Positions 11 through 55,987 of a stretch of 64,000 nt of DNA are shown here, piece by piece (position 1 is the first letter of the stretch; every line of letters begins with the position of its first letter). Under the pieces are notes generated by a model that worked only from the letters and a program-made list of their open reading frames with translations, made no database searches and was not told the origin of the DNA. The stretch lies in contig NZ_JAFMST010000005.1 of assembly GCF_017916275.1 (NCBI RefSeq), forward strand, positions 1 to 64,000, written 5' to 3'. The translations under genes and the position numbers were made by a program. This DNA comes from Rubellimicrobium arenae (lineage in GTDB: Bacteria > Pseudomonadota > Alphaproteobacteria > Rhodobacterales > Rhodobacteraceae).

Positions 11-87
<77 letters not shown>

Positions 88-39865: not shown

Positions 39866-41779
39866 ATGCCGCTCAGGAAGTCCGGCGATCTTCAATCGCG
39901 CGAGGCTAGGCCCGTGCCGGAGCGCGAGCCGACCGCTCCCGGTCTTCTGCGCACGCGCGAAAGGGCCCGGGCCCGGCAGCAGAAGATCGCGGAGCGGGTC
40001 GGCGCCGCGACGGAGGAGCTGGCCAGCGGCATCGCCGAAGCCGCGGCCGCGGCCGAGGAACTCCGGCGCGCCATGACCCAGATCGCCGCCGGCGCCGAGG
40101 ATGCCGCAGGCGCATCCCAGCAATCCCTGACCGCTGCCACCGCCATCCTGGGGGCGCTGACCGAGGCCCGCAGCCGGGCCGAGGAAGGCCGGCGCCGGAC
40201 CGAGGCGCTTCAGACCCAACTGGCCGAAGCCAGTGGCCAGATCGGCCTGTCGGTCGCCAGCATCTCGGGCGCTGCCGACCGGCAGGTCGCCTCGGTGGCC
40301 ACGACGAATGCCCTGCAGCGCCAGGCCGACGCCATCGGAGAGGTCACCCGAAGGATCACGCGCATCTCGGACCAGACGAGCCTGCTGGCGCTGAACGCTG
40401 CCATCGAAGCCGCCCGCGCGGGCGATATGGGCCGGGGCTTCACCGTGGTGGCCGACGAGGTGCGGGCCTTGGCCGAGCGGGCCGAGACGGATGCCTCGGA
40501 CGCGCGTTTGCTGGCCGAACGGATCCGGGAGGAGGCCGTCGAGGTCGCCAAGGCCATCGAGACGGCGGCCGAGGTGGCGGTCCGGGAGGCCGGGCGCGGC
40601 CACGACGTCGTGGCCGCCCTCGAGGACATGCGCCGGGACATGGTGACCCTGGCCGACGGGTCCCGCCTGATCCTCGTCCGGTCGATGGAGTCCGAGAGCG
40701 CCGCGCGCGAGGTGCAGCGAGGCGCCGATCAGGTCGCCTCGGCCTCCGAAGAGCTGGCGGCCGCCTCCGGCGAGGCGCTCCAGGCGATCGAGCAGCAGAG
40801 CACGGCTCTGGATCAAAGCCAGCTCACGGCCCAGGCCCTTGCCGAGGTGGCCGACGACCTCCGCGGCAGCCCCTCCCTGGCCCAGGCGGCGGGCGAGATC
40901 GGGGCCGCCGCCGAGGAACTGTCCGGAACGGTCCAGGAGCTGTCCGGCGCCGCGGCGCAGATCATGGCGGCCGTGGAGCAGATCAGCCGGGGCGCGCAGG
41001 CCCAGGCCGCGGCCGCCCAGCAGTCGAGCCGCGCGATGGAGCAGATCGAGGCCGGGGCCGACCTGGCGCGCACGACCGCCCGCGAGGCCCTGGACCGCGC
41101 GACCTCGGTCCGCGAGATGGTGGGCGAAAGCCGCAGGGCCGTGACCCGCCTGATCGAAGGGGTCGAGCTGTCCCTTCAGGACACCCGGGCCAGCCTCACT
41201 CTCGTGGCCGGGCTCGAAGCCGCCGGACGGCGGATCGACCGGATCGTGGACGCGATCAACATGGTGATCGTCCAGACCAGCATGCTCGCCGTCAACGGCT
41301 CCATCGAGGCCGCGCGTGCGGGCGAGGAGGGTGCAGGCTTTGCCCAGGTGTCGGCGGACATCCGGGCGCTCGCCCGGGATGCCTTCGAGGACGCGGCCGA
41401 GATCCGGGAGGCCGTGCGCGCCATCCAGGATCACGTCGGGAACGTCCGCCGGGAGCTGGAACAAGTGGCCGCCATTTCCGAGCTGGAGGTGCAGAAGAAC
41501 CGGGCCGTCACGGCTGCGCTGACCCTTGTCGACTCCGAGATCGAGGCGCTGGTTGCGGGCAGCCGCGACATCCTCGGCGGGGTGGACGGCATCGCGACCG
41601 CGGCCCGCGAGGCTCGGGCCGGAGCCCATCGGATCGCCGCCGCCGCCGAGCAGGCGAGCAGCGCGACCACGCAGGCTGCCACCGCGGCGCGCCAGCAGGC
41701 CAGGGGGGCCGAGGATCTTGCCGCCGCGATCGAGGAGATCGCCCTGCTGGCGGACGAGCTTCATGTCGGGCAGGGCTGA
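39866..41779 (+). CDS. soluble methyl-accepting chemotaxis-type receptor with two signalling tips
   Basis: 637 residues, no membrane helix, no recognisable ligand-binding domain, almost entirely alanine/glutamate-rich coiled coil. Two receptor hairpin tips are present. Tip 1 is at about 164-186 ([20 protein letters not shown], then [19 protein letters not shown]). Tip 2 is at about 464-504 ([20 protein letters not shown], then [18 protein letters not shown]). Normal receptors have one. The tip contacts CheA and CheW, so this protein may make two contacts per chain. ATG at 39866 follows CGGAGGA at a good distance. No C-terminal CheR-docking pentapeptide is seen. First gene of the chemosensory operon; cytoplasmic, input signal unknown. 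Tip 2 departs from the consensus ([14 protein letters not shown]), so it may be specialised. Confidence 0.85.
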
Positions 41780-41789
41780 CGCCGGCAGC

Positions 41790-43223
41790 ATGACCGGAGG
41801 ACCGCACAGGTTCCTCCGCGTTCAGGTGGGTGACGCCGCCTGCGCCCTTCCTGCGGACCACGTGCGCGAGGTCATCCGTCTCCCGTCCCTGGTCCGGCTG
41901 CCCCGGAGCCCCGCCTGCCTCGACGGGATTGCCAATCTGCATGGACGAGCCTTGCCCGTGGTGGATGCGAGGCGGCTGCTCGACCGCCCCGGCGAAGCAG
42001 CAGGGGACCCGGGGCAGGTGGTCGTCCTCGGTGCTCCCGACCTTGTCGGTCTGCGCGTCCACCGTGTCATGTCGCTGATCGAGGTGGCTGCCGACCGGAT
42101 CCGGCCGATCGGCCATCTGGCCTGGTCCTCCATGCTGGATCTGGACGCGGGCGAAGTCCCGGTCCTCGACCCCGCGCCCGTGCTGGCGCGCGAGTTCCGC
42201 GCCCAAGGCGTTCAGCACCGGGTCGGATCGGCTGCGACTCCGCAGGGTTTCGCGCAGGCTGGACGAACCCGCGCCGAACGGATCTCGGTCCTCGGCTTCG
42301 TTCTCGCGGGCCAGGACTATGGATTGCCGCTGGGGTCGGTGCGAGAGATCGTCCCGATGCCGCCGGACCTCCTTGAGGCGATGCGCGAGGACGGCGCCTC
42401 GCCCGGCCTTATGGAGTTCCGAGGCGCACCCCTGACCGTCCTGTCGGGGCGTCGCCTGCTTGGCGTGCCCCCGCCAGCGACCTCGGACGGACATGTGGTG
42501 GTCGTGGCGCTGGGCAACCGGAGCGTCGGTATCGCCGTCGACCGGACCACGGCCATCCGACGGCTCGACGAGACGGATCTCGACCCGGTCTCGCCTCTGC
42601 TCGGGCAGGATGCCGGGTCCCAGGCCGAACTGGAGGGCGTCGCGCGTCTGGACGGGGGGCGTCGGCTGGTGGCGCTCCTGTCCCCGGAACGCCTGCTCGA
42701 TCCCGGCACGCTGCACCGGGTCCTGTCCAGCGAAGCCGCCCCGGCGCGTCGTTCCCTGGCGGCTGATCCAGAAGACATGACCCATGTCCTGACGTTCCAC
42801 CTGGGGACAAGCGAGTTGGCTGTGCCCATCGAGGTGGTCGAGGAGATCGTGCCGCGTCCGTCCCGGATGTCCCGGCTGCCGCGCGCGCCGGCCTTTTTCG
42901 ACGGGGTGATGAACCTGCGCGGCCGGGCCGTGCCTGTCCTCGATCTGCAGCGCCGGCTTGGGTTGCCCTCCAGGCCCGCCCGGTCGGACGATCACCTTCT
43001 GGTGCTGTCGCATAAGGACCGGCGAGCCGCATTCGTGGTCGACGCCGGAAGCCGCATCGCGCTGTTGCCCGACGCGGCCCTGGACCCCTCGCCGGATGGC
43101 GCAGAGGTCGGGCGCGTGGCCAGGATGGGGCAGGGCCGCACGGTCCTCCTCCCTGACGTGGACCGGCTGCTCGAAGGGCTCGACCCGTCCGGGCCTGCGC
43201 GGACCGGAGAGGGCGGGGCATGA
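41790..43223 (+). CDS. CheW-like adaptor with three CheW domains
   Basis: 477 residues. Three CheW folds follow each other. Domain 1 (about 5-140) has LRVQVGDAACALPADHVREV and ANLHGRALPVVD. Domain 2 (about 165-310) has LGFVLAGQDYGLPLGSVREI and MEFRGAPLTVLSGRRLL. Domain 3 (about 325-465) has LTFHLGTSELAVPIEVVEEI and MNLRGRAVPVLDLQRRL. Standard CheW has one domain of about 150 residues and links receptors to CheA. A triple version could nucleate an array on its own. The start is uncertain: ATG at 41790 (10 nt after the receptor stop) was chosen over ATG at 41763. The stop overlaps cheB by four bases. Confidence 0.85.
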   Translation: MTGGPHRFLRVQVGDAACALPADHVREVIRLPSLVRLPRSPACLDGIANLHGRALPVVDARRLLDRPGEAAGDPGQVVVLGAPDLVGLRVHRVMSLIEVAADRIRPIGHLAWSSMLDLDAGEVPVLDPAPVLAREFRAQGVQHRVGSAATPQGFAQAGRTRAERISVLGFVLAGQDYGLPLGSVREIVPMPPDLLEAMREDGASPGLMEFRGAPLTVLSGRRLLGVPPPATSDGHVVVVALGNRSVGIAVDRTTAIRRLDETDLDPVSPLLGQDAGSQAELEGVARLDGGRRLVALLSPERLLDPGTLHRVLSSEAAPARRSLAADPEDMTHVLTFHLGTSELAVPIEVVEEIVPRPSRMSRLPRAPAFFDGVMNLRGRAVPVLDLQRRLGLPSRPARSDDHLLVLSHKDRRAAFVVDAGSRIALLPDAALDPSPDGAEVGRVARMGQGRTVLLPDVDRLLEGLDPSGPARTGEGGA

Positions 43224-44287
43224 TCCGGCTCCTGATCGTCGACGACTCCGCGCTCATGCGGAAGCTCCTGACCGGGCTGTTCACGGGGCAATCCGGCTTC
43301 GAGGTGCATACGGCCCGCGACGGCGAGGAAGCGCTGGCGTTGGCGCGAAGCCTGCGCCCCGACGTGGTCACCCTTGACGTGAACATGCCCCGCATGGATG
43401 GCCTGGCCTGCCTCGACCGCCTCATGGTGGAGGCGCCCTGTCCGGTCGTGATGGTCTCGGCCCTGACCGCCAGAGGGGCGGACGTCACTCTCGAGGCGAT
43501 GCGGCTCGGCGCGGTGGACTTCGTGACCAAGCCCGGCGGCGCCGTCTCGCTCGAGATGGATCAGTTCGGTCCCCTTATCGTAGCCAAGGTCCGCGCCGCC
43601 GCGGGCGCCCGGCCACGCCGCAGCCTGCGGCTGTCCGAGGTCGTCCGTCATCGCGTCGGTGCCGGCAGCCCCGTGGCCCGCTCCACGCGCCTGCAGGAGG
43701 GGTGGGGGCCCGTCGCGGAAGGTCTGGTGCTGGTCGGGACCTCGACAGGCGGCCCGCCGGCGCTGGAAAACCTGCTGACCCGCCTTCCCGCAGGGTTCGC
43801 CTGGCCGCTTCTCGTGGCCCAGCACATGCCCGCCACCTTCACCGGCGCGCTCGCCCGACGCCTGAACGGCCTTTGCGAGATCGAGGTGGTCGAGGTGGAC
43901 CGACCCATGCCCCTTCGGCCCGGGCGGGCCTATATCGGCCGGGGCGACGCCGACCTGCTCGTGGCGCGCCGGGGCAGTGAGCTGGCGGCGGTCGTTGCCC
44001 CCGCCTCGGATCGCTACCTCTGGCACCCGAGCGTGGACCGGCTGGTCGAAAGCGCCATGGAGCACATGCCGCCGCGTCGCCTCATCGGCGTGCTGATGAC
44101 CGGCATGGGCCGCGACGGCGCCGAGGCCATGACGCGACTGCGCGGCCAAGGCGGCCGAACGATCGCCGAGTCGGAGGCGACGGCAGTCATCTGGGGAATG
44201 CCCGGGGAACTGGTCCGCGCGGGCGGGGCCGACATCGTCGCGCCCCTCGACGAGATCCCGCTCAACCTTTGCCGCATGGTGCCCTGA
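43220..44287 (+). CDS. cheB: chemotaxis response regulator protein-glutamate methylesterase
   Basis: 355 residues. The receiver domain (1-120) has the acidic pair in LLIVDDS, phospho-acceptor Asp53 in LDVNMPRMDG and Lys104. The methylesterase domain (about 165-350) has the catalytic triad Ser175 (GTSTGG), His202 (QHMP) and Asp299 (GMGRDG). CheB removes methyl groups from, and deamidates, receptor glutamines and glutamates when phosphorylated by CheA, giving adaptation. It overlaps the triple CheW gene by four bases. Complete and likely active. Confidence 0.95.
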   Translation: MIRLLIVDDSALMRKLLTGLFTGQSGFEVHTARDGEEALALARSLRPDVVTLDVNMPRMDGLACLDRLMVEAPCPVVMVSALTARGADVTLEAMRLGAVDFVTKPGGAVSLEMDQFGPLIVAKVRAAAGARPRRSLRLSEVVRHRVGAGSPVARSTRLQEGWGPVAEGLVLVGTSTGGPPALENLLTRLPAGFAWPLLVAQHMPATFTGALARRLNGLCEIEVVEVDRPMPLRPGRAYIGRGDADLLVARRGSELAAVVAPASDRYLWHPSVDRLVESAMEHMPPRRLIGVLMTGMGRDGAEAMTRLRGQGGRTIAESEATAVIWGMPGELVRAGGADIVAPLDEIPLNLCRMVP

Positions 44288-44288
44288 C

Positions 44289-44912
44289 ATGCCCCTGACC
44301 CGCCGCGACGGCTCCAGCCCGATCCCTCCGGCCGATCCGACGCCGACGTCCCGGCCAGACCCGTCGTCCCCCGATCCCGAGGCGCGGCGCGCGGCCACCA
44401 GGCTCCTGCCGCCCAATCCCGAGAGCGCCGGGCCGCTGGGTCGCATGCTCGCCCACGAGCGCGATGGCAGCGTCCGGGAGGCGATCCTGACGGCGCTGGC
44501 GCGGATCGGCGGGGATGCTGCCGTCGCGGCGCTCCTCCCGCATCTTCGATCCGATGATGCCGCCCTGCGGTCGGCCGCCCTGACGACGCTTCAGGGGCTC
44601 CCCGCCACGCTGGCGCAGTTGCCGGCGCTCCTGGCGGATGAGGACCCCGACATCCGCGTCCTGGCCGCCGAGATCGCGCGCGCCATGCCCGCCGGAGAGG
44701 CCGCCGCCCTCCTGTGCGGCATGATCGCCCGGGAACGGGAGCCGAACCCCTGCGCGGCCGCCGTCGAGGTTCTGGCCGAGATCGGCGGCCCGGACTGCCT
44801 GCCCGTGCTCGAGGCCTGCGCGGGTCGGTTCGCGTCGGAGCCCTTCCTGGGCTTTGCGATCCGTGCGGCCTCCGCCCGGATCTCGGGCGGCCGGGCGCCC
44901 GCCACGCGATGA
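44289..44912 (+). CDS. HEAT-repeat protein in chemosensory operon
   Basis: 207 residues. After a proline-rich, probably disordered start (1-35), about four helical HEAT-like repeats follow, for example VREAILTALARIGGDAAVAA, ALRSAALTTLQGLPATLAQL, DIRVLAAEIARAMPAGEAAA and NPCAAAVEVLAEIGGPDCLP. HEAT repeats form an alpha solenoid that binds other proteins. No catalytic motif is seen. It sits one base after cheB and overlaps cheR (ATGA), so it is made with the adaptation enzymes and may scaffold them or tune the array. Function is inferred from context only. Confidence 0.75.
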   Translation: MPLTRRDGSSPIPPADPTPTSRPDPSSPDPEARRAATRLLPPNPESAGPLGRMLAHERDGSVREAILTALARIGGDAAVAALLPHLRSDDAALRSAALTTLQGLPATLAQLPALLADEDPDIRVLAAEIARAMPAGEAAALLCGMIAREREPNPCAAAVEVLAEIGGPDCLPVLEACAGRFASEPFLGFAIRAASARISGGRAPATR

Positions 44913-45766
44913 CGTCCGCCGTGCCCCCGCGCGCGACGGCGGACGAGTTCCAGCGCCTGTGCGATTTCCTGTACCGCCGGACGGGACTCTCGTTCACGCC
45001 GGCGCGCCGCTACTACGTCGACCGCCGGCTTGCGGCACGGATGGAGGCGACGGGGGCCGCCACCTTCCCGGATTATTTCGCGCGGCTCAGGGCGGACGCG
45101 GGCGGGGAGGTCGAGCATCTCGTCAACAGCCTGACCGTCAACGAGACCTACTTCTTCCGCGAGGATCACCAGCTCCGCTGCCTGACCTCCTCCATCCTGC
45201 CCGGCGCCGTGGCGCGGAGGGTCCCCTCCGAGCCGGTCCGGATCTGGTCCGTTCCCTGCTCGACCGGCGAGGAGCCCTATTCCATCGCGATCTGGCTTCT
45301 GGAGAACTGGCCGCCCATCGACGACGTGGACGTCGAGATCGTCGGGTCCGACATCGACACCCTTGCCCTGGCGGCGGCCCGCGACGGCATCTACGGCCGC
45401 CGTTCCCTTTCGCGCCTCCCTCCGGCGCTGGTCACGAAGTACTTCGACCAATCCGGCGACGAGTCGTGGCGGATCATCGACGGCCTCCGCGAGTCCGTGC
45501 TGTTCACGGAGGCGAACCTGATCGATCCGGCAACCGTCGGCGCCCAAGGCCGGTTCGACGTGATCTTCTGCCGCAACGTGCTGATCTATTTCGACGACAT
45601 GTCCCGCCGCGTCGCCGCGGAGAACCTTTACGACGCCCTCGTGCCCGGAGGATACATCTGCCTGGGGCACGCGGAATCGATGAGCCGCATCTCCCCGCTC
45701 TTCGAGGTGCGCCGCCACGAGGAGGCGATCGTCTACCAGCGGCCGGAAGGGGACGCGCATGACTGA
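44909..45766 (+). CDS. cheR: chemotaxis protein-glutamate O-methyltransferase
   Basis: 285 residues. A short N-terminal helical domain (FQRLCDFLYRRTGLSFTPAR) precedes the AdoMet-dependent methyltransferase fold: NETYFFRE, the cofactor loop VRIWSVPCSTGEEPYSIAIW, VEIVGSDIDTLALAAA and FDVIFCRNVLIYFDD. It methylates receptor glutamates and opposes CheB. It overlaps the HEAT gene by four bases and the cheY gene by eight. All usual motifs are intact. Confidence 0.95.
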   Translation: MTSAVPPRATADEFQRLCDFLYRRTGLSFTPARRYYVDRRLAARMEATGAATFPDYFARLRADAGGEVEHLVNSLTVNETYFFREDHQLRCLTSSILPGAVARRVPSEPVRIWSVPCSTGEEPYSIAIWLLENWPPIDDVDVEIVGSDIDTLALAAARDGIYGRRSLSRLPPALVTKYFDQSGDESWRIIDGLRESVLFTEANLIDPATVGAQGRFDVIFCRNVLIYFDDMSRRVAAENLYDALVPGGYICLGHAESMSRISPLFEVRRHEEAIVYQRPEGDAHD

Positions 45767-46145
45767 CCCAAGGCGGCGCGTGCTCGTGGCCGACGATTCC
45801 GCGCTCCTGCGGCAGTGGTGCCGCCATGCCCTGGAGCCCGCAGGCTTCGAGATCGAGGAAGCCCTGAACGGCATCGAGGCGCTGGAAAAGGCTCTGGTCT
45901 CTTCGTTCGACCTCATCATCGTCGACGTGAACATGCCCTACATGGACGGGATCACCTTCCTCCAGTCCCTCCGCCGCCAGCCGCTGCCCCTTGGGGGAAC
46001 GCCGACTCTCGTGGCGAGCACCGAAGGCGGTCCGCAGGACCGGGAGGCGGCCCGGCAGGCCGGGGCGAACTTCTACCTGGTCAAGCCTCTCGACGAGGAC
46101 GTGCTGCGCCGCCACGTCGCCGCCCTGACGGGGGCCGCGGCATGA
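45759..46145 (+). CDS. cheY: CheY-like single-domain response regulator (first copy)
   Basis: 128 residues, one receiver domain. Acidic pair in VLVADDSALL, phospho-acceptor Asp56 (IIVDVNMPYMDG), Thr/Ser switch in LVASTEG and Lys in YLVKPLD. It receives phosphate from CheA and carries the output or acts as a phosphate sink. It overlaps cheR by eight and cheA by four bases. No flagellar gene is nearby, so the target may not be a motor. Confidence 0.93.
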   Translation: MTDPRRRVLVADDSALLRQWCRHALEPAGFEIEEALNGIEALEKALVSSFDLIIVDVNMPYMDGITFLQSLRRQPLPLGGTPTLVASTEGGPQDREAARQAGANFYLVKPLDEDVLRRHVAALTGAAA

Positions 46146-48316
46146 GCCCCCTGGACGAGCAGTTCCTGATCGAATGCCGCGAGCTCACCGCCCAGGCCGC
46201 AGAGGATATCGTCGCGCTCGAGCGTGATCCGGGCGACATCGGACGGTTGGACCGTCTGTTCCGGGTCGTGCACACCCTCAAGGGTTCGGCCGCCGTGATG
46301 GAGCTTGCTCCGATGTCGCGCCTCATGCACGCGTCGGAGGATTGGCTGGGCTCCTGGCGCGGTCAGGAACGGCTTCCGGCCGGAGCCATCGACCGGGTGC
46401 TCGCCATCCTGGACCAGACGGAGTCCTGGCTGGGCCACTTCGAGGCCGAGGGCCGCCTGCCCGAGGACGCCTCGGCCACGGCGGACAGGCTGCTCGAGGG
46501 CACCGGGTCCCACGGGGGGGCCAGCCCCGTCGGGCCGATCCCGGAGGCACCACCCTGGGCGCAGGAGATGCTGGACGACCTTACGGACATTCCGGCCGGG
46601 CCCATCGTCGCCCTGGACTACGAACCCCGTCCCGGGTGCTTCTTCGACGGCGACGACCCGCTGGATCTCGTGCGGCGCCTTCCGGGCCTCCTGGCGGTCA
46701 GCGTCGTGCCCCGTGACCCCTGGCCACCCATCGAGCAGACGGACCCCTTCACCTGCAACCTCCGTATCCGCGCTCTCGCGGCGGCGGACCCGGGAACGGC
46801 GCGCGACCTCGTCCGGCTTGTGGCCGATCAGGCCCGGATCGCGGTCGTGGAACCTGCGCCCGAACGGGCGACCTCCGCCGATGTCCTTCTGAACGCCATC
46901 CTGGCAGAGCAAGGCCTGCTGCTCCGGACGCCCGCCGAACCGGGTGATCTGTTGGGGCGGCTGGCTTCGGCGGCGCGATCGGCGGTGAATGCGCTCCGGC
47001 ACGCCGGTGCGGGTGAACGTGCCGACCGGATCGACGCCGCCGGGGCCGCCGCCTTGGCCCAAAAGGACCCGCGGCCGCTTCTCGCCGCGCTCGAGGAGCC
47101 CTGGTCCGCTGGACCCGCCGGCTCCGAGGCGCCGGCACCGACAGGCGCGAGCCCGGCGACCCGGGTAGACTCGGCCCGCATCGACCGGCTCGCGGACCTG
47201 GCGGGCGAGATCGCCGTCGCGCGAAATGGCCTGTCGCACCTGCTCGGCCGCGCGTCAGGCGACATGGCGGCGTCCGATCTCCTGAAGCAACTGGCCGAGC
47301 GTGACGCCGAGCTCGGGCGCCTGACCGTGGTGCTCCAGCGGGCCGTGGCGGACCTGCGGCTCATGCCCGTGGGACCCGTGTTCCGGCGCTTTCCCCGCCT
47401 CGTCCGCGAGACCGCCCGAAGCCTCGGCAAGCAGGTCCTGCTGGACATGTCCGGTGAAGGCACCGAGGTCGACCGGACCATCGTCGAGTCCATCCACGAA
47501 CCGCTGCTCCACCTTCTCAGGAACGCGCTCGATCACGGGATCGAGCCGCCGGAGGAGCGTCGTGCCGCGGGCAAGCCCCCGGAGGGCCGGATCACCCTGA
47601 GGGCCGCGCCCGACGGCGACCGCGTCGCGATCGAGGTCGGCGATGACGGCAGGGGAATCGACCCCGCCGCGCTCCGCCGCAGGGCGGTCAGGCAAGGGGT
47701 CGTGACCGAGGCCGCCGCCCTCGCCATGTCCGACGAGGAGGCGGTCCAACTGGTGCTTCGGTCCGGTGTCTCGACCGCCGCGCGGGTTTCCGACCTGTCG
47801 GGGCGCGGCGTGGGCATGGACGTCGTGCGCGACGCCGTCGAACGGGTGGGCGGCACGCTCCAGATCCTGAACCGGCCCGGCAAGGGAACGACCTTCCGGC
47901 TCCTGCTGCCGATCAGCATGACCGTGACGCGCGTCATGGTGGTCCGCGCCGGCACCGAGCGGTTCGGGCTCCCCATGGATCGCGCGCTGCAGACGGTCCG
48001 GATCCCCCGGGAGCGCATCCACCCGATCCGGAGCGGGGCGGCGTTCGTCCTGCGCGACCGCACGGTCCCGTTGGTGGGGCTGGCGGATCTGCTTGGGTTG
48101 ACGGGTGTCACGGGGGGCGATCAGGCGCTGGTCGTCGTGCTTGCCACTCGCAGCGGACCGGTCGGCTTCGAGGTGGACGGCATCGAGGATCGGCTCGACG
48201 CCCCGATGCGGCCGCCCGAGGGTCTCCTTGCCAACATGCCGCACCTGCTGGGCACCACGGTTCGCGGGGACGGGCAGGTGCTCCTCGTGCTCGAACCGGA
48301 GGCGTTGCTGCCATGA
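46142..48316 (+). CDS. cheA: chemotaxis histidine kinase
   Basis: 724 residues. The P1 Hpt domain has the phospho-accepting His44 (HTLKGSAAVMEL). A middle region of about 140 residues (GCFFDGDDPLDLVRRLPGLL, then TDPFTCNLRIRALAA) resembles the P2-type domain of alphaproteobacterial CheA. The P3 dimerisation helices (VDSARIDRLADLAGEIAVAR) follow, then the P4 kinase domain with N-box LLHLLRNALDHGIE and G-boxes VGDDGRGID and GRGVGMDVV, and the CheW-like P5 domain. Receptors and the triple CheW would control its autokinase; it feeds the CheY and CheB receivers encoded beside it. Complete. Confidence 0.95.
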   Translation: MSPLDEQFLIECRELTAQAAEDIVALERDPGDIGRLDRLFRVVHTLKGSAAVMELAPMSRLMHASEDWLGSWRGQERLPAGAIDRVLAILDQTESWLGHFEAEGRLPEDASATADRLLEGTGSHGGASPVGPIPEAPPWAQEMLDDLTDIPAGPIVALDYEPRPGCFFDGDDPLDLVRRLPGLLAVSVVPRDPWPPIEQTDPFTCNLRIRALAAADPGTARDLVRLVADQARIAVVEPAPERATSADVLLNAILAEQGLLLRTPAEPGDLLGRLASAARSAVNALRHAGAGERADRIDAAGAAALAQKDPRPLLAALEEPWSAGPAGSEAPAPTGASPATRVDSARIDRLADLAGEIAVARNGLSHLLGRASGDMAASDLLKQLAERDAELGRLTVVLQRAVADLRLMPVGPVFRRFPRLVRETARSLGKQVLLDMSGEGTEVDRTIVESIHEPLLHLLRNALDHGIEPPEERRAAGKPPEGRITLRAAPDGDRVAIEVGDDGRGIDPAALRRRAVRQGVVTEAAALAMSDEEAVQLVLRSGVSTAARVSDLSGRGVGMDVVRDAVERVGGTLQILNRPGKGTTFRLLLPISMTVTRVMVVRAGTERFGLPMDRALQTVRIPRERIHPIRSGAAFVLRDRTVPLVGLADLLGLTGVTGGDQALVVVLATRSGPVGFEVDGIEDRLDAPMRPPEGLLANMPHLLGTTVRGDGQVLLVLEPEALLP

Positions 48317-48567
48317 CCGTCCGACGGCAAGGGTCCGCGATCGTGCTGGAGGGGCGCTGTTCCGTGGACGAGGCGGAAATGCTCGCCCTGCTGCTTCGTG
48401 ACGCAGGCGCCGCCACGGTCGACTGGCGCGGCGCGTCGCATCTCCATACGGCGTTGGTGCAGCTTGTGCTTCAGGCGGGCCGGCCGGTCCAGGGACCCTG
48501 CGGCGATCCCTTCGTCGCCCGCTGGATCGAGCCGATCACGGTTGCAGCCCCACCGGGCGGATTGTAA
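48313..48567 (+). CDS. small STAS-like protein
   Basis: 84 residues, shorter than the usual STAS domain of about 100. The pattern GSAIVLEGRCSVDEAEMLAL, then ATVDWRGASHLHTALVQLVL fits an anti-sigma-factor-antagonist fold, with W-R-G-A-S-H-L-H-T at the position of the usual D-x-S/T-G-V-D-S/T loop. The phosphorylatable serine may be Ser in GASHL. STAS proteins relay protein-protein signals. Here it overlaps cheA by four bases and may link the pathway to a partner switch or to CheA itself. Family membership is likely but weak. Confidence 0.6.
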   Translation: MTVRRQGSAIVLEGRCSVDEAEMLALLLRDAGAATVDWRGASHLHTALVQLVLQAGRPVQGPCGDPFVARWIEPITVAAPPGGL

Positions 48568-48614
48568 CCTGATGATGGAGAATTCTTCAGAGATGCCGAG
48601 AGGGTAGCGTTCAC

Positions 48615-49025
48615 GTGACCGCAACTGACAGCACCGGAACCGTTGCAAGGACGGTGTTGATCGTGGACGACAGCAAGCTGGCCCGCATGGTCGTTGCTCG
48701 CGCCCTGGGACGGCTGAGGCCCGACTGGCGCCCGGTCGAGGCGGCCAACGCCGACGAGGCCCTGGAGAAGGCCCGATCAGAGCCGGTCGATGTGGCGTTC
48801 ATCGACTTCAACATGCCGGGGGCGGATGGCCTCAGCCTGGCTGCGGACCTGCGGGAGACTTGGCCCAACATGCCGATCGCGCTGATCTCGGCCAACGTCC
48901 AGGACGAGATCATCTCGCGCGCACGGGCGCTCGACACCACCTTCGTGCCCAAGCCGGTCACGGACGAGGCTCTTGGCGCCTTCCTGTCGGGCGCTACGCT
49001 CCGGCTCAGGCGCGCGGGGGCATGA
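48615..49025 (+). CDS. cheY: CheY-like single-domain response regulator (second copy)
   Basis: 136 residues with GTG start. Acidic pair in VLIVDDSKLARM, phospho-acceptor Asp64 (VAFIDFNMPGADG), switch residue in ALISANV and Lys in FVPKPV. It is coupled to the CheC-type phosphatase gene by a four-base overlap, so the two probably act as a regulator and its phosphatase. A 47-nt gap before it is the largest inside the operon; GAGAGGG about 11 nt upstream may be its ribosome site. Confidence 0.92.
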   Translation: MTATDSTGTVARTVLIVDDSKLARMVVARALGRLRPDWRPVEAANADEALEKARSEPVDVAFIDFNMPGADGLSLAADLRETWPNMPIALISANVQDEIISRARALDTTFVPKPVTDEALGAFLSGATLRLRRAGA

Positions 49026-49678
49026 GCGGGACGTTGATCGAACTGGACGAACTGGAGCGCGATGCGCTGGCCGAACTGGCCAACATGGGCGTGGGCCGCG
49101 CGGCCGCCAACCTCGCGCGGATGGTGGGCGGGCAGGTTCTCCTGTCGGTGCCCGCCGTCGAGGTCGTGACCCGCGCCCGGGCGTCCGCCCTCGCGATGCG
49201 GGGCAACACCGGCAGCCTTGTCGCCGTGCAGCAGAATTTCGTCGGGCCGTTCTCGGGCCAGGCCGTTCTCGTGTTCCCCGAGGCCAACAGCCTCGAACTG
49301 GTCCGCGCGGTCGTGGGCGAAGCGGTCCCGCTCGAGGATGTGGCGGACCTCGAGCAGGAGGCGGTCGCGGAGATCGGCAACGTCGTCCTGAACGGCTGCC
49401 TCGCGACGATGGCGAACGTGCTTCGTCAACGGCTGGACATGTCCCTGCCCGAGGTCATGCGGACCACGGATGCGGAGCTCTTCGGAGGCGGTCCGGCCGA
49501 GCAGGACGGTGGGCTGGTGCTGTTCCTGTTCATCGACTTCCGCGTCCGCGACCGCGACATCCAGGGCTACATCGCGCTGCTGATGGACCTGCCGTCGCTG
49601 GAGCGGCTGAAGCAGCTCATCAACGACTTCATCCAAAGGGCCACCTCCGCTCAGGCCACGGCCACCTCGAATGGTTGA
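49022..49678 (+). CDS. cheC: CheC-family CheY-P phosphatase
   Basis: 218 residues. Both signature helices of the CheC/CheX/FliY family are present: DALAELANMGVGRAAANLA (D-x3-E-x2-N) and EQEAVAEIGNVVLNGCLATM (E-x3-E-x2-N). Two sites are typical of CheC, one or none of CheX or CheD-binding variants. These glutamate and asparagine residues remove phosphate from CheY-P. CheC is common in Firmicutes and archaea and less usual in alphaproteobacteria. No cheD was found beside it. It overlaps the second cheY by four bases and the hybrid kinase by eight. Confidence 0.85.
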   Translation: MSGTLIELDELERDALAELANMGVGRAAANLARMVGGQVLLSVPAVEVVTRARASALAMRGNTGSLVAVQQNFVGPFSGQAVLVFPEANSLELVRAVVGEAVPLEDVADLEQEAVAEIGNVVLNGCLATMANVLRQRLDMSLPEVMRTTDAELFGGGPAEQDGGLVLFLFIDFRVRDRDIQGYIALLMDLPSLERLKQLINDFIQRATSAQATATSNG

Positions 49679-52148
49679 TGCCTCGCTCCTCGCCGCCGCG
49701 ATGGACTCCCTCGAAAGCGGAGTCATCCTGATCGATGCCAATGGCGCGATCCTGTGGTGGAACGCGTGGTTCGCCGCCGCGTCGGGTCTCGCGCCGGAAG
49801 CCGGGGCCGGGCGGACGCTCGGCGACGTCTTTCCCGGGCTCGACGGCTCGAGGCTCGCCCTGGCCATCACCGACGCGCTCGAACTCGGCATCTCGAGCAC
49901 CCTGAGCCACGCGCTGAATCCTGAACTCCTGCCTCTGCGGCGGCGGGACGGACGGCCGATGATTCACCATGTCGTCGTGCGTTCGGTGGAGACCGGCAAT
50001 GCCCGCACGGTGCTGGTGCAGGTCATGGACGCCAGCGCCGCCCACCACCGGGAGCGCGTCCTGCGCGAACGCCTGAACGCCCGCTTCAGCGCCGTGGTGG
50101 ACGGGGCCTTCGACGCCATCCTGATGGCGGACGGGCAGGGTCGGATCCAGTGGCTCAACGATGCGGCGGTCCGCCAGTTCGGCTTCGCGCGCTCCGAGGC
50201 CGAAGGCCAGGACATCTCCTTTCTCCTGCCGGCCCGCGACGGCCCCAGCCTTGCCCAGATCCGGCGACCCGAGGAAGAGGTGGGGCGGCGCAGCGACGGC
50301 GGCGTGGTGCCCGTGGAGGTCTCCGTGGCGCCCTGGGTGGCCGAGGGGCGGCGCCATCTGACCGTGATCCTGCGCGACCTGAGCGAGCGGAAGCGGGCCG
50401 AGGATGCCCTGCGCGCCGCCGCCGCCGTGTCCTCGGGCACCAGCGACAGCGTCCTCCTGGCCGAGCTGGCGCGTGAGCTCGCGGCCGGGCTCGGGGTGGA
50501 GCACACGCACATCGCGGTCCTCGTCGACGAGGGAGGCGAGCGCCGGCTGAGGTCGCTCGCCGTCTGGTCGGCCGGGCGCACCGATCCGGTCGAGTTCGCG
50601 ATCGACGGAACGCCCTGCGCGGATACCTTCGCCGACGGCCACTGCGTCGTGCCGCGCGGCGTCCGCGGGATGTTCCCTCGGGCCGGCTTGCTCACCGAAC
50701 GCGGTTTCGAGAGTTATGTGGGCGTGCGCTTCCACGACGCGCAGGGCCGCCCGATCGGGGTGGTCTGCGCGATGGACCGCCAGCCGCTGGCGAACCCCGA
50801 GCTGGCCGAGCGGCTGGTCACGGCCTTCGCCGCCCGGGCCGGGGGCGAACTGGCCCGCCAGCGGGCCGAGGCCGACCTCCGCGCGCTCAACGCCGAGCTC
50901 GAACAGCGGGTCGAGGACCGCACCCAGGCGCTGGCCCGCGCGGCGGCCGATCTCCAGGTCGAGATGAAGCAGCGCGAGGAGGCCCAGGCGGCCTTGGCGC
51001 AAAGCCAGAAGCTTGAGGCGCTGGGCCAGCTCGTCGGGGGTGTCGCGCACGACTTCAACAACATGCTGGCCGCGATCACGGGAAGCTATGCCCTGATCGA
51101 CCGGCGCGTGGAGGACCCGGCGGTCCGGGAGATCGTGGAACATGGCCGCAAGGCGGCCGACCGCGCGGCCGAGCTGGTGCGCCACCTGCTGGCCTTCGCC
51201 CGGCGCGAGGAGCTCCGCCCCAAGGTGGTGGATCCGTCGGGGCTGCTGACCGACGTGGCCGACCTGCTGTCCCATGCCGCCGGTCCGACGATCGCCTGCA
51301 CGATCGAAACCGAGGCCGACACCTGGCCGGTGCTGGTCGACCGCCACCGGCTGGAGGTGGCGCTCCTCAATCTCGTGGTGAACGCCCGTGACGCCATGCC
51401 CGAAGGGGGGCGCCTCACCATCCGTGCTCATCGGCTCGCGCCCGAGGGGCGGCACCCGCAGGTGCCCGCCGGGGACTTCAGCGTGATCTCCGTCGCCGAC
51501 ACCGGTGTCGGGATGCCGCCCCATGTGCTGGCGCGGGCCGTCGAGCCATTCTTCACCACCAAGGCCGTGGGCAAGGGGACCGGTTTGGGGCTGGCCATGG
51601 TCCACGGCTTTGTGGAGCAGTCCGGCGGGGCCATGCTGATCGACAGCCGTCCGGGCGAAGGCACGAGGATCAGCCTGGTCCTGCCCCGCGCGACCGGCGA
51701 GATCGCCAGCGAGGACGCCGCCGCCGAGCCCCTGGCGGCAAAGCCCCGCAGCCATGCGGTCCTCCTCGTGGTCGATGACGACGATCAGGTCCGACCGGTG
51801 ACGGGGGCGCATCTGCGCGACCTGGGCTACAGCGTCCATGAGGCCTCCAGCGGCGACGAGGCCATCCGGATCGCGGCCGCCGTTCCCCGCCTGGATCTCG
51901 TGGTCAGCGATGTCGTCATGCCGGACATGGACGGTCCCTCGCTGGCCGCGCGGCTGCGGGCCGCGCACCCGTCGCTGCGGATCATGTTCCTGACCGGTCA
52001 TGCCGATCCGCAGGCGCTCGCCGGAGAGGCGGTGCTCGGCAAGCCCTTCAGCCCGGACCAGCTGGCCCAGGCCATCGAGGCGGCGCTCCGGTCCCCCGAA
52101 GAGGCTGGGGGGAACCTGTCCGGACGTGAAGTCGCCTGGCAGCACTGA
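49671..52148 (+). CDS. hybrid sensor histidine kinase (PAS-PAS-GAF-HisKA-HATPase-REC)
   Basis: 825 residues, no membrane segment. PAS domains lie at about 5-120 (GVILIDANGAILWWN) and 130-240 (AVVDGAFDAILMADGQG), a GAF domain at about 255-395 with CADTFADGHCVVPRG, and a coiled coil at 398-445. The dimerisation helix carries phospho-accepting His460 (VGGVAHDFNNMLAAI). The ATPase domain has NLVVNARDAMPEGG and GTGLGLAMVHGF. The C-terminal receiver has VVDDDDQ and phospho-acceptor Asp in VVSDVVMPDMDG. It senses a cytoplasmic cue, perhaps redox or a small ligand. Its end is 22 nt before hupT, so it links the chemosensory genes with the H2-sensing genes. Confidence 0.9.
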   Translation: MVDASLLAAAMDSLESGVILIDANGAILWWNAWFAAASGLAPEAGAGRTLGDVFPGLDGSRLALAITDALELGISSTLSHALNPELLPLRRRDGRPMIHHVVVRSVETGNARTVLVQVMDASAAHHRERVLRERLNARFSAVVDGAFDAILMADGQGRIQWLNDAAVRQFGFARSEAEGQDISFLLPARDGPSLAQIRRPEEEVGRRSDGGVVPVEVSVAPWVAEGRRHLTVILRDLSERKRAEDALRAAAAVSSGTSDSVLLAELARELAAGLGVEHTHIAVLVDEGGERRLRSLAVWSAGRTDPVEFAIDGTPCADTFADGHCVVPRGVRGMFPRAGLLTERGFESYVGVRFHDAQGRPIGVVCAMDRQPLANPELAERLVTAFAARAGGELARQRAEADLRALNAELEQRVEDRTQALARAAADLQVEMKQREEAQAALAQSQKLEALGQLVGGVAHDFNNMLAAITGSYALIDRRVEDPAVREIVEHGRKAADRAAELVRHLLAFARREELRPKVVDPSGLLTDVADLLSHAAGPTIACTIETEADTWPVLVDRHRLEVALLNLVVNARDAMPEGGRLTIRAHRLAPEGRHPQVPAGDFSVISVADTGVGMPPHVLARAVEPFFTTKAVGKGTGLGLAMVHGFVEQSGGAMLIDSRPGEGTRISLVLPRATGEIASEDAAAEPLAAKPRSHAVLLVVDDDDQVRPVTGAHLRDLGYSVHEASSGDEAIRIAAAVPRLDLVVSDVVMPDMDGPSLAARLRAAHPSLRIMFLTGHADPQALAGEAVLGKPFSPDQLAQAIEAALRSPEEAGGNLSGREVAWQH

Positions 52149-52170
52149 CGGAGGCCGGGTCCGCGGCATC

Positions 52171-53577
52171 ATGGATCCGTCCAGGGTTAGCGCCCTGCGG
52201 GGTTCGGCTTTCCATGGCACGCCTGTCCCGGTAACCTGCGACGCGGAGGACGATGCAGTGCGCCTTGGGCAGGACCTCGTTCAGACGACCCCGACCGCGG
52301 AGTTCAGCGACTCCGCCTGGCTCGACGTGCTGCGCGCCGTGGACAGCACCTACGCAGAGCTGGTCTCCTATCAGGAGCGTCTTGAGCAGCAGAACGCCGA
52401 GCTGGAGTCGCTGCGAAGGAGCATGGCGTCCGTCCTCGATTCCGTGTCCGACGTCCTCGTCGTCGTGGATCGCGACGGCCGCATGGAGGAAACGAGCGCA
52501 TCGCTCCGTGCGCTCTTCGCCGAACCTGGCTCGCTGGCCGGGCAGCCCATGGCAGGCATCGTGGACGAGGGGTCGCGCACGATCCTCGAGGCCGCGCTCC
52601 ACGAGGTGATGGTCAGCCGCCGCCGCCTGACGGTGGAAGCCGACCTGGCCTCGCCCTCTGGCCCCCAGACGTTCGAATGGAGCCTGACGCCCCGCCTCGA
52701 TGACCGCCGTCGCAGCAAGGGCGCGGTTCTCGTCGGTCGCCCGGTGGGTGAGCTGCGCCGCGCCTACGAAGCGCTCGAGAACAGCCATCGCGCCCTGCAG
52801 GAGGCGCAGGCCCAGCTCGTCCGCAACGAGAAGATGGCCTCCCTCGGGCGACTGCTGGCCGGGGTCGCGCATGAGCTGAACAACCCGATCAGCTTCGTCT
52901 ACGCCAACGTCCATGCGCTCGAACGCTACGCGAGCCGCTTCGAGGCCTACTTCGAGCGCGTGCAGGCCGGTGCCCTGCGCGAGGAGCTGGTCCGGCTGCG
53001 CGCCGAGCTGAAGCTCGACCGCGAGGTCCGCAACCTCCGCACCGCCATCGACGGCGCGCGTGACGGAGCCGAGCGGGTGCGCGACATCGTGGCCGACCTG
53101 CGCCGCCTGTCCGCCGACGGCTCGGGCGAGGCGATCGCCTTCGACCTGGCCGAGACGGTGCGCGTCGCCGCGAACTGGGTCCTGCGCGGCGCCAAGCACA
53201 AGCCCGCCCTGACCATCGAAGGCGAGGAGACGCTGCGCGCCATCGGCCGCGCGGGCCACATTCAGCAGGTCGTGATGAACCTGATCCAGAACGCGCTCGA
53301 CGCCGTGGCCGAAACCGACGATCCCGTCGTGACGGTGACACTGATGCATGGGGACGGCATGGCGGTCGTGGAGGTGCAGGACAATGGCCCGGGCGTCCCG
53401 CCCGAGGCGCGGGGCCGCATCTTCGACCCGTTCTTCACGACGAAGCCGGTGGGGAAGGGGACGGGCCTCGGCCTGTCCATCTCCGCCAAGATCGCCGAGG
53501 AGCATGGCGGCGCGCTCCGCCTGCTCGACGGTCCCCCCGGCGCGACCTTCCGCCTGTCGATCCCGGAGGCGCGATGA
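52171..53577 (+). CDS. hupT: H2-sensing system histidine kinase
   Basis: 468 residues, soluble. Layout: N-terminal helices, a PAS domain at about 85-190 (SVSDVLVVVDRDGRMEET), a long helix and the H-box with His234 (LLAGVAHELNNPISFV), then the ATPase domain with NLIQNALDAVAE, DNGPGVPPEARGRIFDPFFT and GKGTGLGLSIS. Size and order match HupT of Rhodobacter capsulatus, which phosphorylates the regulator HupR in response to the HupUV sensor hydrogenase. HupR is not in the window. The start ATG at 52171 is a choice; upstream text is not HupT-like. It overlaps hupU by four bases, and this neighbour confirms the name. Confidence 0.92.
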   Translation: MDPSRVSALRGSAFHGTPVPVTCDAEDDAVRLGQDLVQTTPTAEFSDSAWLDVLRAVDSTYAELVSYQERLEQQNAELESLRRSMASVLDSVSDVLVVVDRDGRMEETSASLRALFAEPGSLAGQPMAGIVDEGSRTILEAALHEVMVSRRRLTVEADLASPSGPQTFEWSLTPRLDDRRRSKGAVLVGRPVGELRRAYEALENSHRALQEAQAQLVRNEKMASLGRLLAGVAHELNNPISFVYANVHALERYASRFEAYFERVQAGALREELVRLRAELKLDREVRNLRTAIDGARDGAERVRDIVADLRRLSADGSGEAIAFDLAETVRVAANWVLRGAKHKPALTIEGEETLRAIGRAGHIQQVVMNLIQNALDAVAETDDPVVTVTLMHGDGMAVVEVQDNGPGVPPEARGRIFDPFFTTKPVGKGTGLGLSISAKIAEEHGGALRLLDGPPGATFRLSIPEAR

Positions 53578-54563
53578 ACCTCCTCTGGCTCCAGTCGGCG
53601 GGCTGCGGCGGCTGCACCATGTCGCTCCTTTGCGCCGAAAATCCGGGCGTCTTCGACCTCCTGTCCGGCGCGGGCATCCACGTCCTCTGGCACCCCTCCC
53701 TGTCGCAGGAGACGGGGGCCGAGGCGCTGGCCATCCTCGATGCCGTGGCCTCGGGCACGGTGCCCCTCGACGTCCTCTGCATCGAAGGGTCGGTCGTCAC
53801 GGGGCCCAAGGGGACCGGGCGCTTCCACATCCTGGGCGGCACCGGGCGGCCCATGCTGGACTGGGTGCGCCAATTGGCCCCGCTCGCCCGGCATGTCGTC
53901 GCGGTGGGCAGTTGCGCGGCCTATGGCGGCATCACTTCGGCCGGCGACAACCCGGCGGGCGCGACCGGCCTGCAATGGGACGGCACCCGACCCGGGGCCG
54001 TGCTGCACGCCAGCTTCCGCGCCCGGGGCGGCCTGCCGGTCGTCAACGTCGCGGGCTGCCCCACGCACCCCGACTGGGTGACCGAAACCCTGCTCCTCCT
54101 GGCCGAAGGCGCGCTGGGCGAGGGCGACCTCGACCGCTACGGACGGCCCCGCTTCTTCGCCGACCACCTCGTCCACCACGCCTGCCCCAAGAACGAGTTT
54201 TACGAATATAAGGCGAGCGCCAAGGCGCTGTCGCAGATGGGCTGCATGATGGAGCATCTGGGCTGCGTCGGCACCCAGGCGGCGGGCGACTGCAACATCC
54301 GGGGCTGGAACGGCGGCTCCTCCTGCACCCGCGCCGGCACCCCTTGCGTGGCCTGCACCGCGCCTGAGTGGGAGGAGCCCCGGCATCCCTTCACCGAGAC
54401 GCCCAAGCTCGCCGGCATCCCGGTGGGCCTGCCCTCCGATATGCCCAAGGCCTGGTTCATGGCGCTGGCCTCTCTCTCCAAGGCGGCGACGCCGGATCGG
54501 ATCGGCGCCAACGCCACCGCCGACCGCATCCTCGTGCCACCCAGCCTGCCCAAGCGCCCATGA
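53574..54563 (+). CDS. hupU: H2 sensor (regulatory) hydrogenase small subunit
   Basis: 329 residues. It is homologous to [NiFe]-hydrogenase small subunits but has no Tat signal and no C-terminal membrane anchor, as expected for the cytoplasmic sensor HupU/HoxB. Iron-sulfur ligands are visible: Cys11 and Cys14 (QSAGCGGCTM), VGSCAAYGGI, VAGCPTHPD, the HHACPKNEFYEY region, GCMMEHLGC and the late CTRAGTPCVAC. It transfers electrons from the active site in HupV and controls HupT activity. Complete; overlaps both neighbours by four bases. Confidence 0.95.
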   Translation: MNLLWLQSAGCGGCTMSLLCAENPGVFDLLSGAGIHVLWHPSLSQETGAEALAILDAVASGTVPLDVLCIEGSVVTGPKGTGRFHILGGTGRPMLDWVRQLAPLARHVVAVGSCAAYGGITSAGDNPAGATGLQWDGTRPGAVLHASFRARGGLPVVNVAGCPTHPDWVTETLLLLAEGALGEGDLDRYGRPRFFADHLVHHACPKNEFYEYKASAKALSQMGCMMEHLGCVGTQAAGDCNIRGWNGGSSCTRAGTPCVACTAPEWEEPRHPFTETPKLAGIPVGLPSDMPKAWFMALASLSKAATPDRIGANATADRILVPPSLPKRP

Positions 54564-55987
54564 CCTCCCGCACCCTCCTCGTCGGCCCGTTCAACCGGGT
54601 CGAGGGCGACCTCGAGGTCCGCCTGACGGTCGAGGAGGGGCGCGTCGTCGCTGCCCACGTCAACTCGCCCCTGTTCCGGGGCTTCGAGATGATGCTTCTG
54701 GGCAAGGACCCACGCGACGCGCTGACCATCACGCCGCGCATCTGCGGCATCTGCTCGATCAGCCAGTCGGCGGCCGCCGCGCTGGCGCTGGCCGATGCCG
54801 CCGGGGTTACGCCCGCGCCGCAGGGGGCGCTCGCCGCCGCGATCCTCCACGGGGTCGAGAACCTGTCCGACCACGTGACCCACTTCCACCTGTTCTTCAT
54901 GCCGGACTTCGCCCGCCCGGCCTATGCGGGTCGCCCCTGGCACGCGCAGGCCGTCGCCCGCTTCACCGCCATGGAGGGCAGCGCCGCCCGCGCCATGACC
55001 TCCGCCCGGGCCGAGCTTCTGCACATCGTGGGCCTTCTCGGGGGCAAGTGGCCCCACACGCTGGCCATCCAGCCCGGTGGCGTCACCCGGGCGCCGACCG
55101 TGCGCGACAAGATCCGCATGGCGACGACTCTGCGGTCGTTCCGGAGCTTCCTCGAAGCCAGCCTCTTCGGGGGCGCCTTGGAGGACTTCGCCGCCCTCCC
55201 GTCCCTCGACGCCCTGATGGGCTGGTCCAGCGGCGACGCGGGCCTGTTCCTCCGGATCGCCGCCGACCTCGACCTCCTGGGCCTCGGCCCCGGCCCGGGC
55301 CGGTATCTCTCCAGCGGCGGCTATCCGACCGCCTCCGGCACCGCCTTCGCGCGGGGCATCTGGACCGAGGGCACCACCGCCCCGCTCGACTCCTCCGCCA
55401 TCACCGAGGACCTGAGCCACGCTTGGATGCTCGGCCCCTCGCGCCACCCCGCGCAGGGCGTGACCGCCCCCGATGAGGACATGGCCGCCCCGGCCTATAG
55501 CTGGTGCAAGGCCCCGCGCCTTTCGGGCCGGACCATGGAGACGGGGGCGCTCGCCCGGCAGGTCGTGGACGGGCACCCGCTCGCGCTCGACCTCGCGGCC
55601 CGCTCCTCCGTCCTGGCCCGCGTCGCCGCGCGGCTGCTGGAGATCGCCCGCACCCAGATCCTGCTGGAGCAATGGGTCGCCGCCCTCGACTCCGCCCAGC
55701 CCTTCATGGCCGAGGCTCCCCTCTGCGACGGCGAGGGCGCGGGGCTGGTCGAGGCCGCGCGCGGCACCCTCGGCCACTGGGTCCGGATCGAGCGTGGCCG
55801 CATCGCCGCCTACCAGATCGTCGCGCCGACGACCTGGAACTTCTCGCCCCGCGACGCGGGCGGCGTCCCCGGCCCGGTCGAGGCCGCGCTCGTCGGCGCC
55901 CCGGTGGGCGAGGGGGAGGTGGCCCCGCTCGCCGTCCAGCACATCGTCCGGAGCTTCGACCCGTGCATGGTCTGCACGGTGCATTGA
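54560..55987 (+). CDS. hupV: H2 sensor (regulatory) hydrogenase large subunit
   Basis: 475 residues. Nickel ligands are Cys62 and Cys65 (RICGICSISQ) near the start and Cys469 and Cys472 (SFDPCMVCTVH) at the end. The protein stops directly at His475, so there is no C-terminal extension to be cleaved, which is a hallmark of HupV/HoxC sensor hydrogenases. It holds the NiFe(CN)2CO site that detects H2. ATG at 54560 overlaps the hupU stop. The stop overlaps the proposed hypF start. Confidence 0.95.
   Translation: MTSRTLLVGPFNRVEGDLEVRLTVEEGRVVAAHVNSPLFRGFEMMLLGKDPRDALTITPRICGICSISQSAAAALALADAAGVTPAPQGALAAAILHGVENLSDHVTHFHLFFMPDFARPAYAGRPWHAQAVARFTAMEGSAARAMTSARAELLHIVGLLGGKWPHTLAIQPGGVTRAPTVRDKIRMATTLRSFRSFLEASLFGGALEDFAALPSLDALMGWSSGDAGLFLRIAADLDLLGLGPGPGRYLSSGGYPTASGTAFARGIWTEGTTAPLDSSAITEDLSHAWMLGPSRHPAQGVTAPDEDMAAPAYSWCKAPRLSGRTMETGALARQVVDGHPLALDLAARSSVLARVAARLLEIARTQILLEQWVAALDSAQPFMAEAPLCDGEGAGLVEAARGTLGHWVRIERGRIAAYQIVAPTTWNFSPRDAGGVPGPVEAALVGAPVGEGEVAPLAVQHIVRSFDPCMVCTVH

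Follow-up and report, generated by a model that had tools for sequence, protein, structure and literature searches.

The 64,000-nt stretch analyzed here (the window; positions 1 to 64,000 of the forward strand of contig NZ_JAFMST010000005.1 from the Rubellimicrobium arenae assembly GCF_017916275.1) carries eleven genes that likely make up a chemosensory system of the Che2 type, complete in itself and non-flagellar, and their place directly before the H2-sensing hupTUV genes is most likely an accident of the lineage. The eleven genes have a defined anatomy, recur together in other genomes, and lie in a genome that matches neither flagellin nor FlhA.

A preliminary description of this DNA had proposed eleven tightly packed genes, and all eleven were found in that order on the + strand between 39866 and 52148. 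The run opens with a soluble chemoreceptor of 637 aa (39866..41779; two MCPsignal stretches by Pfam, with AlphaFold2 and hydropathy analysis) and a coupling protein of 477 aa with three fused CheW domains (41790..43223; three Pfam CheW stretches), followed by CheB, with receiver and methylesterase domains (43220..44287), a HEAT-repeat protein of 207 aa (44289..44912; HEAT_2, E 2.4e-17), the methyltransferase CheR (44909..45766), the stand-alone receiver CheY1 (45759..46145), and CheA, with Hpt, dimerization, ATPase and one CheW domain (46142..48316). It continues with an 84-aa open reading frame (ORF) for a putative STAS-like protein (48313..48567; AlphaFold2 and Foldseek), the stand-alone receiver CheY2 with a GTG start (48615..49025), a predicted CheC-type CheY-P phosphatase (49022..49678; CheC and CheX matches), and a hybrid kinase composed of PAS, PAS, HisKA, HATPase and receiver domains with a CckA-like core (49671..52148; Pfam and NCBIfam). 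Pfam matches, on which the CheB, CheR, CheY1, CheA and CheY2 assignments are based, were obtained for 10 of the 11 genes. With the start of CheY2 taken as GTG 48615, the ten intergenic spacings are, in operon order, 10, -4, 1, -4, -8, -4, -4, 47, -4 and -8 nt. Chance is no serious reading of this gene run, because 10 of its 11 members match Pfam and the same order is found in Rubellimicrobium rubrum and in genomes G050 and G743.

Rubellimicrobium rubrum YIM 131921 (G002), of the same genus, has the complete set of eleven in identical order, with identities of 70% (receptor, a methyl-accepting chemotaxis protein, MCP), 40% (CheW), 72% (CheB), 57% (HEAT), 73% (CheR), 82% (CheY1), 54% (CheA), 59% (STAS-like), 72% (CheY2), 81% (CheC) and 71% (kinase). 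The triple-CheW gene (41790-43223) is the fastest-evolving part of the operon by this comparison, at 40% versus 54 to 82% for the others. The full operon in the same order is also found in G050 and G743; versions without HEAT and CheY1 occur in G643, Novosphingobium, A. vitis and Sphingobium; a further copy lies outside the Alphaproteobacteria, in G1058; and in Azospirillum TSH58 and Sp7 the operon genes are present but rearranged, with CheC and CheY placed differently. The same or nearly the same operon was thus seen at ten other loci in total, and two more, in G003 and G922, are interrupted by contig ends. The HEAT protein is kept in Rubellimicrobium rubrum, G050, G743, the two Azospirillum and G1058, and was not found in the operon loci of G643, Novosphingobium, A. 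vitis and Sphingobium. Among the plasmid records with a match, of which 6 of 31 were read, that of A. ramasamyi holds no more than CheC together with a PAS protein and a regulator. G050 and G643 each have an additional CheC gene downstream of the hybrid kinase (L023 18107-18721 and L058 14476-15072, respectively).

Searches with a CheC alignment (A1, E 1e-20) give the wider distribution. In the family, 1 of 394 sampled genomes matched, this being the R. arenae genome itself, in a sample that contained one other genome of the genus. In the class, 14 of 385 genomes matched; the 13 others carry the full module in three cases (G050, G643 and G743) and CheY2-CheC in the other ten, where a PAS kinase adjoins in seven. 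In the phylum, 54 of 398 genomes matched, a figure that is not a count of the module since A1 also catches generic CheC/CheX at this level; nine loci from these 54 genomes were fetched and comprised one full module, one cut module and seven without it. An earlier genus-level query, P0009, gave a strong match in three of eight genomes; it carried 131 residues of read-through ahead of the true CheC start and was followed by the trimmed alignment A1. A peptide-pattern scan of contigs with P0009 returned one locus, in Rubellimicrobium rubrum, with two of its six patterns drawn from the read-through residues and with exact patterns that reach close relatives only. The distribution of the system is patchy: most occurrences are in alphaproteobacteria, and one lies outside the class.

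The closest described counterpart is in Azospirillum brasilense Sp7, where tblastn of the window proteins against plasmid p2 (L140) gave best identities of 32 to 56% across parts. The p2 locus reads response regulator, CheC, MCP, long CheW, CheB, HEAT, CheR, response regulator, CheA and small ORF, ten genes with one-to-one homologues in the set found here, which is thus of the Che2 type in gene content. According to an excerpt of PMC8561660, A. brasilense che2 encodes ten proteins, including CheA2, CheW2, Cle2, Cle3, CheC and Tlp32, and its function is not known; two of the four Che pathways of this organism are described, in an excerpt of PMC6759762, as shown or hypothesized to serve functions unrelated to chemotaxis. 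An ACF class of chemosensory systems is described in excerpted text of PMC10782961. The two loci differ in arrangement: Sp7 has a response regulator and CheC ahead of the receptor and, in a convergent run, a second CheC together with the PAS protein and a regulator, whereas all eleven R. arenae genes are collinear.

The absence of flagellar genes, which the preliminary description had reported for the region in view, was followed up across the genome with three families, of which flagellin and FlhA are absent and FliG is present. The R. arenae assembly (4.5 Mb, 99.58% complete, with the operon on contig C35) gave no match to the flagellin model (0/1) or the FlhA model (0/1), each of which was positive in 4 of 14 named control genomes. 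One FliG with all three FliG domains is present (C33:249011-249352; L075:8970-10025, minus strand); it is isolated, its neighboring ORFs being non-flagellar by eye, and candidate readings are that it is a remnant or has been repurposed. By these families the genome encodes no flagellum, which speaks against membership in a flagellar chemotaxis system, and the suggestion of an output other than swimming is supported. For R. mesophilum, an excerpt of PMC4149006 gives "motile (without a flagellum)" and names only one gene each for the flagellar motor and hook capping, with no structural flagella genes.

At its downstream end the operon is followed by hupT, hupU, hupV and hypF. The sensor kinase HupT (52171..53577; domain scan and alignment with relatives), the small subunit HupU of the H2-sensing hydrogenase (53574..54563; domain scan) and its large subunit HupV (54560..55987; domain scan) are all on the + strand, and the arrangement of a PAS-HisKA-HATPase kinase ahead of the small and the large hydrogenase subunit places these genes among the HupTUV systems. 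The distance of 22 nt first given between the kinase stop (52148) and hupT is correct for ATG 52171. An in-frame GTG at 52258 appears more likely as the start, and therefore the gap to hupT may be 109 nt. The GTG has a GGAGG 8 nt upstream, compared with 16 nt for the ATG, and it fits the HupT relatives better: in 33 of 36 the alignment starts at window-frame residues 93-106 (52270-52309), while in the remaining three (L106, L121 and L050) it starts earlier and is gapped and weak. The nearest start codon lies 3 to 57 nt upstream of the alignment start in the ten of the 33 relatives listed.

The adjacency had suggested that che and hup genes form one functional unit, in which both systems sense H2 or the redox state, or CheY/CheC output tunes HupT and hydrogenase expression. 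The shared strand, the gap of 22 to 109 nt and the lack of a predicted terminator speak for such a unit, which the comparative data nevertheless make highly unlikely. No HupU was found within the fetched stretches of any of the ten other operon loci, nor in the 20 che loci and 9 phylum loci fetched, nor in the Sp7 stretch. Among 19 genomes tested, a high-scoring HupU was present only in R. arenae itself (G000) and in G441, where the CheC trio, not the full module, lies on a contig other than that of HupU; weak matches were seen in G743 (65 bits, 28%, uptake type) and G449 (52 bits). No HupU-type protein was found in the operon-bearing genomes G002, G050, G643 and G743 or in the cut-off G003, bar the weak G743 match.

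The reciprocal comparison started from HupU, which at E 1e-60 is present in 42 of 295 family genomes. The DNA upstream of hup was examined in loci from 34 of the 41 other genomes (one cut match and six with 42-44% identity were set aside) together with two plasmid loci, giving 36 loci (35 distinct, as L126 and L051, both on contigs of 169107 bases, are apparently a single record), with at least 10 kb upstream of hupT available in 27 and 2 to 9 kb in the rest. In all 36 hupT precedes hupU, and in none does the DNA fetched upstream contain a core che gene scoring above 60 bits. Matches below this bar or outside the core set comprised two MCP-like ones in L122 (43 and 54 bits, roughly 5.5 kb upstream of hupT), lone CheY-like matches of 41 to 57 bits in L117, L132 and L135, and other kinases in L123, L125, L126 and L051. 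At the DNA level, blastn of the contig against Rubellimicrobium rubrum aligned 39950-41765 and 43221-52076, the CheW gene being too diverged to align, and beyond the operon gave only one 117-nt match, at 151.7 kb; homology thus breaks at the junction, stopping at 52076, inside the final 72 nt of the gene for the kinase. The hup cluster also has its own response regulator, a receiver/sigma-54/Fis protein (L009:7399-9390) between HupH- and HypD-type genes, which we take to be the expected HupR. Its order hupT-hupU-hupV-hypF is that of Fuscovulum ytuae, and it is unusual solely in its upstream neighbor. No paper linking che and hup genes was found among the open-access literature listings searched. 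The genes do adjoin on one strand, as first described; the proposed H2 or redox link is not supported, as the adjacency is not conserved in relatives, an outcome that had been named beforehand as refuting it, and the adjacency is probably incidental. At the start of the window (11-87 and 738-1358), a tRNA-Met with recombinase-like and IstB-like ORFs just inside it, the ORFs identified by eye, may mark an integrated element.

The receptor is of unusual build. Two MCPsignal stretches are present in all nine receptors compared, and in the AlphaFold2 model (five rows; mean pLDDT, the predicted local distance difference test, of 90) helices 26-184, 186-334 and 338-634 form two long hairpins, at a predicted template modeling score (pTM) of 0.64. 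Foldseek matched the model to MCP cytoplasmic domains such as 2ch7. The highest 19-residue hydropathy is 1.35. No sensor domain was found in the receptor, so that input probably enters elsewhere. Residues 1-26 form an N-terminal tail that is disordered in the model (pLDDT below 50), carries a net charge of +6 (+6 to +11 in all eight measured) and starts with an M-A-L-V-K-K-like motif in most.

The hairpin tips are 37% identical within a protein versus 57 to 60% between relatives, and are therefore old and separately kept. They also differ from each other consistently: in what we take to be Tsr numbering, position 381 is Asn in 9/9 first tips and Ser in 8/9 second tips, and position 373 is Asp/Glu in 9/9 first tips and Val/Leu/Ile in 9/9 second tips. 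The difference is less marked at position 391 (first tips Glu 1/9 and Asp 6/9, second tips Glu 7/9 and Asp 2/9). Position 398, Val/Ile in 9/9 first tips and mixed in the second, argues against a clear-cut division of trimer and CheW contacts between the tips. The coupling protein has three CheW stretches in all nine compared (the R. arenae protein and 8/8 relatives scanned), and no paper describing triple CheW or twin-hairpin receptors was found among the literature listings searched.

In CheC, E18 N21 P44 and E117 N120 P143 are invariant in the five sequences aligned. We take E..N plus P to be the CheC phosphatase active-site motif; on this basis the protein would belong to the CheC phosphatase family with both sites kept. 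The 84-aa ORF has no Pfam match, and its AlphaFold2 model (pLDDT 90) weakly suggests a STAS-like fold: the best Foldseek matches are mostly anti-sigma-factor antagonists and MlaB-type chains, with a best E of 4.8e-3 and none at or below 1e-3. The hybrid kinase matches the NCBIfam CckA model at 375 bits, below the model cut-off of 1000. At seven loci (L060-L065 and L067) the CheY2-CheC-kinase trio occurs in a stretch without a CheA match, although L063 and L065 do have MCP-like matches in the vicinity (67 and 73 bits, respectively); the kinase is therefore a likely partner of CheY2, and the pattern suggests that the trio is an independent phosphorelay module.

A working scheme may be assembled from these parts. 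The receptor, with two fused MCP hairpins in what is perhaps a one-chain pseudo-dimer and with a histone-like basic tail, would nucleate a soluble array, which may sit on the nucleoid as FrzCD of Myxococcus does, and the triple-CheW protein could fix the stoichiometry of coupling with CheA. Input could enter through the PAS domains of the hybrid kinase, through the STAS-like protein or through the HEAT protein. Adaptation of the array would fall to CheR and CheB, CheA would phosphorylate CheY1 and CheB, the hybrid kinase and CheA would converge on CheY2, and CheC would remove the CheY2 phosphate. The system may act, by protein-protein contact or by phosphorelay, on a target that is not a flagellum. 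The most specific version of this scheme is a membrane-free array on the nucleoid built from single-chain pseudo-dimer receptors whose two unequal tips make different contacts, strapped by triple CheW and read out through an additional kinase, distinct from CheA, on the same CheY. We regard this version as doubtful, and as somewhat less likely after the comparison of the tips.

FrzCD of Myxococcus xanthus is likewise a cytoplasmic receptor with a basic N-terminal tail; in an excerpt of PMC5716589 this tail, of about 30 residues, serves for efficient DNA binding and binds the nucleoid, and two hairpins, CheC and triple CheW are not mentioned there for Frz. The FrzCD-like soluble receptor with its basic tail, together with the flagellum-free motility described for R. 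mesophilum, would be in keeping with a system that steers non-flagellar surface movement by type IV pili or gliding. We consider this unlikely: no pilus or gliding annotation was found in the plasmid loci read (annotated loci only), and two further divergent che clusters with CheA, CheW, CheR, CheB and CheY, at C35:113.7-125.2 kb (L011 and L012), could serve that role. A PilM search gave a match of 21 bits in R. arenae, and its control lacked specificity, being positive in 9 of 14 genomes, probably via FtsA-like proteins.

The plasmid copies (L045, L046, L047, L048 and L140) lie near GH15, Ku/LigD, DUF3606, DUF2934 or DUF892 genes, which we presume to be typical of stress islands. These neighbors would favor a role of the operon in a stress or survival regulon, but they differ between loci, and we judge this role improbable. 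No coding-strand GGAAC-N-GTT site of the EcfG (general-stress promoter) type was found upstream of the operon in nine loci, in a scan that covered only 57 nt for L021 and was anchored within the gene for L047 (by about 120 nt) and L059 (by about 40 nt); one reverse-strand match occurs in L058.

Several points weigh against the interpretation that we favor, of a self-contained Che2-type system placed before hupTUV by accident. The sharing of CheY2 by CheA and the hybrid kinase, the entry of input via PAS, STAS-like or HEAT proteins and the array on the nucleoid are inferred from sequence and structure prediction; the STAS-like assignment carries the weak fold match given above, and it is by analogy with FrzCD alone that the receptor is perhaps nucleoid-bound. 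The trio does not stand apart from CheA everywhere: CheA and CheB lie near it in L066, and CheA stands beside a CheY-CheC-kinase trio in L162, L163 and L165, three of the seven phylum loci without the full module. The match to the published Che2 is one of gene content and number. Finally, no terminator-like or sigma-70-like site is predicted in the 22-109-nt gap between kinase and hupT, and co-transcription with hupT is therefore possible.

The tempting link between chemotaxis and hydrogen is thus unsupported, and is replaced by a defined, patchily spread system. Its twin-hairpin receptor, triple CheW and CheY-CheC-kinase trio offer concrete starting points for working out the construction of non-flagellar chemosensory systems and what they control.

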